A DNA stretch of 64,000 bases from Halorubrum salinum. GTDB lineage: Archaea; Halobacteriota; Halobacteria; Halobacteriales; Haloferacaceae. How positions within the stretch are numbered: the first letter of the stretch is position 1; every line of letters starts with the position of its first letter. Positions 51,223 to 52,312 of the stretch are shown piece by piece. The DNA is taken from positions 248,001 through 312,000 of the forward strand of contig NZ_JANHDO010000001.1 in NCBI RefSeq assembly GCF_024494575.1. Reading direction: 5' to 3'. The notes beneath the pieces were generated by a model. The model was not told where the DNA came from. It ran no database searches and saw only the letters and a list, made by a program, of their open reading frames with translations. A program made the translations under genes and the position numbers.

Positions 51223-51296
51223 GGGCTCGTGGTCTAGCTGGTCATGACGCGGCCTTTACAAGGCTGAGGTCGGCGGTTCGAACCCGCCCGAGCCCA
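51223..51296 (+). tRNA. tRNA-Val, anticodon UAC
   Basis: 74 nt fold as a cloverleaf. The acceptor stem GGGCTCG (51223-51229) pairs with CGAGCCC (51289-51295), with discriminator A51296. The anticodon stem CGGCC/GGCTG encloses TTTACAA, giving the anticodon TAC (reads GUA and other Val codons). The T arm is GGCGG-TTCGAAC-CCGCC. No CCA is encoded and no intron is present. Confidence 0.96.
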
Positions 51297-51331
51297 CTTC
51301 CTGCGGCGAGCAATCCGCGAACCGTAGGTAC

Positions 51332-51339
51332 GGACGGCG
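51332..51339. repeat. Left 8-bp target-site duplication (GGACGGCG)
   Basis: GGACGGCG lies directly before the left terminal inverted repeat and is repeated exactly at 52202-52209 directly after the right one. Confidence 0.85.
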
Positions 51340-51356
51340 GGCTCTGTTGAAATCCT
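51340..51356 (+). repeat. Left terminal inverted repeat
   Basis: GGCTCTGTTGAAATCCT, perfect match to the reverse complement of 52185-52201. Confidence 0.9.
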
Positions 51357-51448
51357 TAGTATCTGATAGGATCGGCGTGCGAGATACAGAGCATGAACCA
51401 ATCAGCGAATCATTGAGACAGTACTAGTCAGCGGTTATCGGATAGTGG

Positions 51449-52015
51449 TTACTCCCGTCGTGTAGTGGAATTCGAGGTGTTTTCGGACCCTGAAACACTT
51501 TGCCCCACACCCGCAGATCCGCCGAAAGCGGATCTATTCGAGTTACCGTATAGCATCGTAACTCTCTCACCGTCGTGTTTGATAATTAGTTGCCACGGGT
51601 CTTCACCCGCGGGAATTCTCATGGTTCCATTATAGCGGGCGACACCTGAACACGTCCGCGGTGCTTTCTCCGTCTCCTCTATCGGCACGTTGAGGACGTA
51701 GGTGGACTCATTCATCCGTTCGAATGTTGGGCCTCCTATCGCGTACGAGGGACCCGGCAGGGAGACATTTTGAGAATAGGTGATTTTCGTGTTTGTATCC
51801 GCAACGACTGAGGTAGAACTGTTCGCCACAAAATCGTCAGTGCATTGAGCACCAGCTGATTCGAAGTGTAGTAACGCCGGCGGTTTTTCAGCGTCGGCGA
51901 GAGGATTATCAAACCCCCCCAGACCACTTCCGCCGAAAGCGAGACCGCTACCAACCCCAATCCCACCAACGACTACGACCACAGCGACGACCACCAGAAT
52001 GTCCTGTCGATTCAT
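51449..52015 (-). CDS. Cargo gene of the insertion element: exported haloarchaeal protein of unknown function
   Basis: This is a 188-residue protein with an N-terminal membrane segment (about 5-28, ILVVVAVVVVVGGIGVGSGL) and a Ser/Asn-rich C-terminus, so it is probably cell-surface. Two cysteines (in AQCTDDF and PRTCSG) may form a disulfide. Inside are FESAGAQC and ARYNGTMRIPAGEDPW, a pattern I associate with a haloarchaeal family without known function. There is no similarity to a transposase. Its codon use and base composition are clearly more AT-rich than the neighbours, which supports transfer. The ATG at 52015 precedes the hydrophobic stretch directly; an earlier in-frame ATG at 52051 is possible. 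Confidence 0.75.
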   Translation of the reverse strand: MNRQDILVVVAVVVVVGGIGVGSGLAFGGSGLGGFDNPLADAEKPPALLHFESAGAQCTDDFVANSSTSVVADTNTKITYSQNVSLPGPSYAIGGPTFERMNESTYVLNVPIEETEKAPRTCSGVARYNGTMRIPAGEDPWQLIIKHDGERVTMLYGNSNRSAFGGSAGVGQSVSGSENTSNSTTRRE

Positions 52016-52184
52016 CGTAGTCCGAACAATGTAGAGCGCCGTGAAAATCATCTCGTAGAGTCAAACGAGCGCTTTAGTCACAGTTCGTCCACAAGGAATG
52101 TACTAACCAACGAGAATTTACATTGATCTCATGCTGCATTCCCGCTCTGCATTCAGCACGGCTGTAAGAATATATCACCGATTG

Positions 52185-52201
52185 AGGATTTCAACAGAGC
52201 C
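52185..52201 (-). repeat. Right terminal inverted repeat
   Basis: AGGATTTCAACAGAGCC, reverse complement of the left end at 51340-51356, with no mismatch. Confidence 0.9.
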
Positions 52202-52209
52202 GGACGGCG
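52202..52209. repeat. Right 8-bp target-site duplication (GGACGGCG)
   Basis: Exact copy of 51332-51339, directly outside the right inverted repeat. Confidence 0.85.
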
Positions 52210-52312
52210 CGGTTCGAAGCCTACCAGTCGCGCGCAGCGAGCACGGGTTCGTCGCGGAGAGCGGACCGAATCGGCTCAGTTTTGCGACGAACGTGGAAGA
52301 AGTGAACGCCGA

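Follow-up and report, generated by a model that had tools for sequence, protein, structure and literature searches.

MIC231 of Bacillus cereus is a mobile insertion cassette (MIC), a unit with the ends of an insertion sequence (IS) that lacks a transposase and carries a passenger gene. Its kin, the IS231 elements of the IS4 family, include autonomous relatives that bear passengers too. Integron gene cassettes, with their attC sites, integrase and arrays, are another well-known form of mobile single gene. In haloarchaea, gene exchange between genera is held to be frequent.

According to a paper of 2008, no other IS family had shown the modularity of IS231 (PMC2266710); MIC231 is also cited in PMC6542083. 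An IS that carries passenger genes has been termed a transporter IS (tIS; PMC3129680). The MITEs of Haloquadratum (HqIRS series) are non-coding, except for the ∼520-bp ISH2 type with one recurring short open reading frame (ORF) (PMC3119063). A review of the IS6 family names a single member with a passenger, and for Hrr. lacusprofundi one transposon passenger gene is noted in the literature. No small dedicated vehicle for single genes is described for haloarchaea in the searchable literature.

Here we analyse an 862-bp unit within a 64,000-nucleotide stretch of the Halorubrum salinum genome (the window). We read it, with a probability of roughly 0.87, as a non-autonomous MIC of a haloarchaeal transposon family with an IS5-type transposase, the ISHla2/ISHxa2 group.

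Structure and position of the unit

The unit occupies window positions 51340–52201 and was re-found as the initial annotation had described it. Its terminal inverted repeats (TIRs; GGCTCTGTTGAAATCCT) match perfectly at 17/17 positions (51340–51356, plus strand; 52185–52201, minus strand), and it is enclosed by an exact 8-bp target site duplication (TSD; GGACGGCG, 51332–51339 and 52202–52209, 8/8). Imperfect similarity between the two ends runs on beyond the TIRs to ∼34 nt (79%). No transposase ORF is present in 51340–52201, and the only gene inside is transcribed leftward. The AT-richness reported for this gene was borne out for the unit, with a GC content of 0.509 versus 0.691 for the whole window and 0.70/0.64 for the flanks, and so was the position after tRNA-Val (51223–51297), at an otherwise empty site, the gap to the start of the unit being 42 bp.

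The 17-mer end, allowing at most one mismatch, is present in all 52 Halorubrum genomes, and a reversed control pattern gave no matches. When ends of different loci are paired, the outer bases agree at 7 or more of 8 positions in 0.35% of pairs and at 8/8 in 0.13%. Thus, the ends and TSD of the window unit are not a product of chance.

Conservation continues inwards from each TIR. The left end forms a module that we call A1 (51340–51395, plus strand), which combines the TIR with a subterminal TTAG..CTGATAGGATCGGCGTGCGAGATACAGAG; bases 1–56 of the query are conserved genus-wide without the cargo. The right end forms an A2 module (52143–52201, minus strand), with the TIR and a subterminal ..GGTGATAT.TTC..CCGTGCTGAATNCAGAGCG; here bases 804–862 are conserved alone, in the genus at large as well as in other haloarchaeal genera, where they are found on plasmids.

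The empty site that the initial annotation had suggested seeking in relatives was recovered in part. In the sister species G018, tRNA-Val is followed by the HAD-like gene that also neighbours the window cassette (89% identity over this gene), with no cassette between them, but the spacer after the tRNA has diverged, so that the single-copy target is recognisable only roughly. Repeated copies of the tRNA-Val 3' end (GGTTCGAACCCGCCCGAGCCCA) lie downstream of the tRNA in G018 (L063). In the window, an imperfect piece of the same 3' end is found at 52209–52221, and bases 52211–52242 have matches at many places genus-wide.

The ends border an IS5-type transposase

The TIR of the window unit also starts units that encode an IS5-type DDE transposase of 273 aa. 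At most loci that were examined, an exact GGCTCTGTTGAAATCCT is present and the transposase ATG follows exactly 52 bp inside this end. With NF033579 the protein reaches 209.8 bits, the curated cutoff being 140, and it also matches PF01609. Homologues occur in 47/52 Halorubrum genomes, and the family reference transposase has 93–94.5% identity to those annotated as ISHla2 (Halorubrum lacusprofundi) and ISHxa2 (Halopiger xanaduensis). Complete units with 8/8 TSDs that contain the transposase exist. The ISHxa2 locus, for instance, has the exact 17-bp end at its start and an 8/8 TSD, and one transposase unit (L199) has a right end of the A2 type, as in the window unit. The window unit differs from ISHla2 and ISHxa2 in having no transposase and in its A1/A2 ends. 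The 8-bp TSD is reminiscent of the ISH1 subgroup of the IS5 family.

Within its own genome, no autonomous element closely matching the window ends was found. The one intact related transposase there shares 68% aa identity and lies beside an end with 3/17 mismatches; the active partner may therefore be lost or reside on another replicon. In the mechanism that we propose, a DDE transposase from a related element elsewhere would recognise both ends (the 17-bp TIR plus ∼40 bp of subterminal sequence), act in trans to move everything between them and leave an 8-bp target duplication. The cargo is an entire gene with no relation to transposition, and upstream of it there is space for its own promoter. 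Such mobilisation in trans is something we infer; it is indicated only indirectly, by identical or near-identical cassettes that stand at different sites with different TSDs.

Units, end types and pairing in the cassette family

The family was sampled in stretches of the window's genome, other Halorubrum species and other haloarchaeal genera, with the ends modelled by profile HMMs. Stretches were picked for ends lying close together, and the counts below describe the family rather than give an unbiased census; units containing N were left out. This yielded 49 distinct TSD-flanked units, 39 with an 8/8 and 10 with a 7/8 duplication. Beyond the 17-bp TIR, five types of end could be distinguished, A1, A2, B1, B2 and C1, the last being the transposase side. 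Most units paired A1 with A2 (18) or B1 with B2 (17), followed by C1/B1 (6) and C1/B2 (3); the rarer pairs were A2/A2 (2), C1/A2 (1), A2/B1 (1) and B1/B1 (1). The two ends were thus unlike in 18/20 A pairs (binomial P = 2e-4 against equal chance) and in 17/18 B pairs (P = 7e-5), both values being hand-calculated.

The transposase gene was found in 10/10 units with a C1 end and in 0/39 units without one. In C1 units it spans bases 53–874, interrupted by a stop in one case (L199), and the DNA beyond it mostly contains one or two unrelated passenger ORFs that vary by unit. One example is ISHxa2 itself (L212:2949–5438, on the Halopiger plasmid NC_015658), a unit of 2490 bp in which the transposase and the first of two passenger genes are each followed by a decayed inner right end, a layout which suggests that the unit was lengthened stepwise. 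Doubled ends ∼90 bp apart in L182 and L196 were considered as tandem insertions; they have N at the joint and are therefore probably assembly-gap artefacts.

The search for other copies of the cassette, with the same or other cargo, that the initial annotation had advised was productive. Besides a decayed copy in Hrr. saccharovorum (below), blastp divides the main cargo into 39 unrelated families among the 45 units whose main ORF is 60 aa or longer. The Pfam names assigned to this cargo include Na+/bile-acid symporter, CAAX/CPBP protease, rhomboid, BrkB, HicA, globin, uracil-DNA glycosylase (UDG), luciferase-like, RDD, Usp and PQQ propeller; by kind, it comprises transporters, proteases, toxin-antitoxins, lipoproteins, the globin, the UDG and others, and the interiors are mostly unrelated. 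By a crude measure, a strong hydrophobic segment is present in 19/33 cargo families of at least 80 aa, versus 23% of 44 gene-like ORFs of the window. Units bearing a passenger had been thought rarer than empty MITEs, an expectation that does not hold for this family, since most of the recovered units contain a gene.

The same cassette can occupy different sites. An SBF-transporter cassette is present in Halorubrum G026 and in G080, whose genome belongs to another family (L169 and L274), with 98.5% nucleotide identity over the interior, and both the sites and the TSDs differ (GTTCATGT vs GTACATCC). Similarly, a HicAB cassette that G004 shares with G037 (L152 and L225; 97% identity) is flanked by GAATGAGG/A in one case and CTACGGCA in the other.

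The passenger gene

The passenger ORF of the window unit (51449–52015, minus strand; 188 aa, MNRQD...) begins at the start common to its homologues; an alternative start gives 51449–52051 and 200 aa. The protein is predicted to be exported or membrane-anchored. A hydrophobic segment at its N terminus precedes a conserved domain, in which two cysteines are kept in all aligned copies, and a Ser/Thr-rich tail. A Pfam search with it gave no match. Homologues are encoded in 12 other Halorubrum genomes (55–70% aa identity). In ten relatives, the homologue sits at one conserved place, adjoining a threonine-dehydratase-like gene (PALP + ACT-like); having no TIRs and this single conserved context, these ten are ruled out as present-day cassettes. 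In Hrr. saccharovorum (G024, DSM 1137), the window cassette is found at an unrelated site with both ends decayed. A midpoint-rooted tree, in which the window branch is long, places the window and Hrr. saccharovorum proteins in a clade apart from the ten TIR-less copies (100/100 support).

Comparison of the window and G024 copies gave dN = 0.20 and dS = 1.01, hence a dN/dS of about 0.19, and the passenger protein is under purifying selection. The earlier claim of a mobile cassette that has no transposase and a real passenger gene was upheld. The simplest history would be that a chromosomal gene was captured once, after which the cassette moved between species. Alternatively, a cassette may have settled and lost its ends, giving rise to the TIR-less copies.

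Alternative explanations

We favour an IS5-type cassette because the TIRs and TSD are exact, the transposase at most loci starts 52 bp inside the same end and, among the TSD-flanked units, occurs only in C1 units; because the cargo families are many and the same cassettes stand at different sites with different TSDs; and because the Hrr. saccharovorum copy is decayed, G018 has no cassette and the passenger is under selection. The initial annotation had instead called the ends IS6-type, which would make the unit a non-autonomous element moved by an IS6/IS26-like transposase. The window end does resemble the consensus of IS6 (GGTTCTGTTGCAAA), and archaeal IS6 members likewise have a TSD of 8 bp (PMC6807381). 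However, at none of 30 PF13610 (IS6/IS240) loci in the genus, including the sole one of this genome, do these ends surround the transposase, so that the IS6-family copies that the annotation proposed to look for were not found there; window-type ends lie directly around the IS5-type transposase instead. An IS6 origin is largely refuted within Halorubrum, and we regard it as very improbable. Nor is the unit likely to be the dead relic of an ancient insertion, no longer able to move. The divergence of the cognate transposase in its own genome would fit such a relic, but the TIRs and TSD of the window unit are perfect where the G024 copy has decayed ends, the site in the sister species is without the cassette, and other cassettes have near-identical copies at different sites.

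Both the route by which genes enter the space between the ends of these IS5-type cassettes and any advantage that a host draws from the cargo are things we infer. Solo ends or MITEs may have inserted to the left and right of a chromosomal gene; the outermost ends, A1 and A2, would then have moved all that lay between them, and the inner ends would have been deleted later. The cargo of the window unit would have come from the site of the TIR-less copy in the ten relatives. Several unpaired ends in the window's genome, cassettes nested in cassettes (L029, L107 and L175), the decayed inner right ends of ISHxa2 and the mixed pairs A2/B1, B1/B1 and A2/A2 all agree with this composite origin, which we rate at a little short of an even chance. 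Random joining of ends would, however, predict as many like as unlike pairs, quite different from the 18 A1/A2 against 2 A2/A2 and 17 B1/B2 against 1 B1/B1 observed, and the window unit has no inner ends. The strong rule of unlike ends would be expected if, instead, cargo were exchanged inside a standing A1–A2 or B1–B2 frame. Cassettes that are alike over about 55–60 bp per end could, for instance, recombine or undergo template switching with one another, in which case the end pair is inherited and the gene alone changes. Near-empty frames exist (278–375 bp in both the A and B classes, and one of ∼108 bp in G037), and the cargo interiors are mostly unrelated, as such exchange would predict. 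The rule would nevertheless be explained equally well if the transposase required unlike ends, and a swap at a single site was not encountered; exchange within a frame is therefore a tentative proposal, which we place at around a one-in-three prospect.

Comparison with described systems

The window unit has IS-type ends and a TSD, lacks a transposase gene, and carries a passenger that is unrelated to transposition, as its homologues and dN/dS indicate. Its ends are common to an autonomous IS, through the exact 17-bp TIR and the A2 right end of L199, although a close autonomous match was not found in its own genome. In these respects it is a MIC and resembles MIC231, and like IS231 the family includes passenger-bearing autonomous relatives. 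It departs from MIC231 in its IS5-type transposase, haloarchaeal hosts, 8-bp TSD, two end pairs (A1/A2 and B1/B2), breadth of cargo and wide distribution of its end across genera. The ten C1 units, with the transposase and further DNA, are like tIS, whereas the window unit, having no transposase, belongs with the MICs and not with the tIS. Nor is it a MITE, since MITEs are short and non-coding and the window unit holds a conserved gene on which purifying selection acts. Haloarchaeal MITEs are moved in trans, as is proposed here, with TIRs related to a known transposon and TSDs (PMC3119063), but the family described here differs from them in its full-gene cargo, which varies between units. Integron gene cassettes share with it a common recognition sequence, one (sometimes two) freely varying genes and a community-wide gene pool; in place of attC sites, an integrase and arrays, this family has a DDE transposase, and its units, with TIRs and TSDs, lie scattered.

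No account of the cassette family was found in the literature on ISHla2/ISHxa2 and haloarchaeal cassettes, a search that ISfinder and most subscription journals lay outside. The MIC as a kind is known from MIC231, and the IS5-type archaeal version with two end pairs and wide cargo appears to be undescribed.

Distribution and further units

Counted alone, the end sequence is present in 152/194 sampled species and 54/65 genera of the class, with no matches to the control pattern, and annotated plasmids of many haloarchaeal genera carry A2- or A1-type ends. The family is a small dedicated vehicle for single genes among haloarchaea, and one that IS annotation based on transposases misses. It also makes gene capture testable, through the end types, the unlike-end rule and the comparison of TIR-less and mobile forms of a passenger gene. 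Conceivably, although we would not put it at even odds, IS5-type ends serve haloarchaea as a gene-shuffling system that extends over the whole class. The two standing frames (A1/A2 and B1/B2) would acquire single host genes time and again, with membrane and exported proteins well represented among them, and carry these genes from one genus to another by means of transposase that separate elements supply. Archaea would then have, in effect, their own equivalent of the integron cassette pool.

Among seven matches in viral contigs, six were single ends without a partner and one was a real unit. The latter, in an IMG/VR contig (L283:9928–10843), is 916 bp long, has an 8/8 TSD (TGGTACTC), contains an HNH-type gene and adjoins a tyrosine-recombinase-like gene; viruses may thus carry such cassettes.

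Three further loci of the genome that harbours the window unit show related arrangements. At contig C1:785430–787607 (L029:3431–5608), an A-type cassette with a 483-aa lipoprotein-like gene and the TSD TACGCGCT lies inside another cassette, whose own TSD is GCCGAGGC/GCTGAGGC; the same lipoprotein family is present in cassettes of two other genomes (L158 and L264). At C1:232463–233983 (L028:2464–3984), the same ends enclose a PQQ-propeller lipoprotein gene, and the flanking 8-mers are inverted, not direct (GCTGAAAC / GTTTCAGA). At C5:75606–77901 (L034:1607–3902), a hybrid unit with A2 and B1 ends and a 7/8 TSD contains a lipoprotein-like gene and a long TnpB-like gene.
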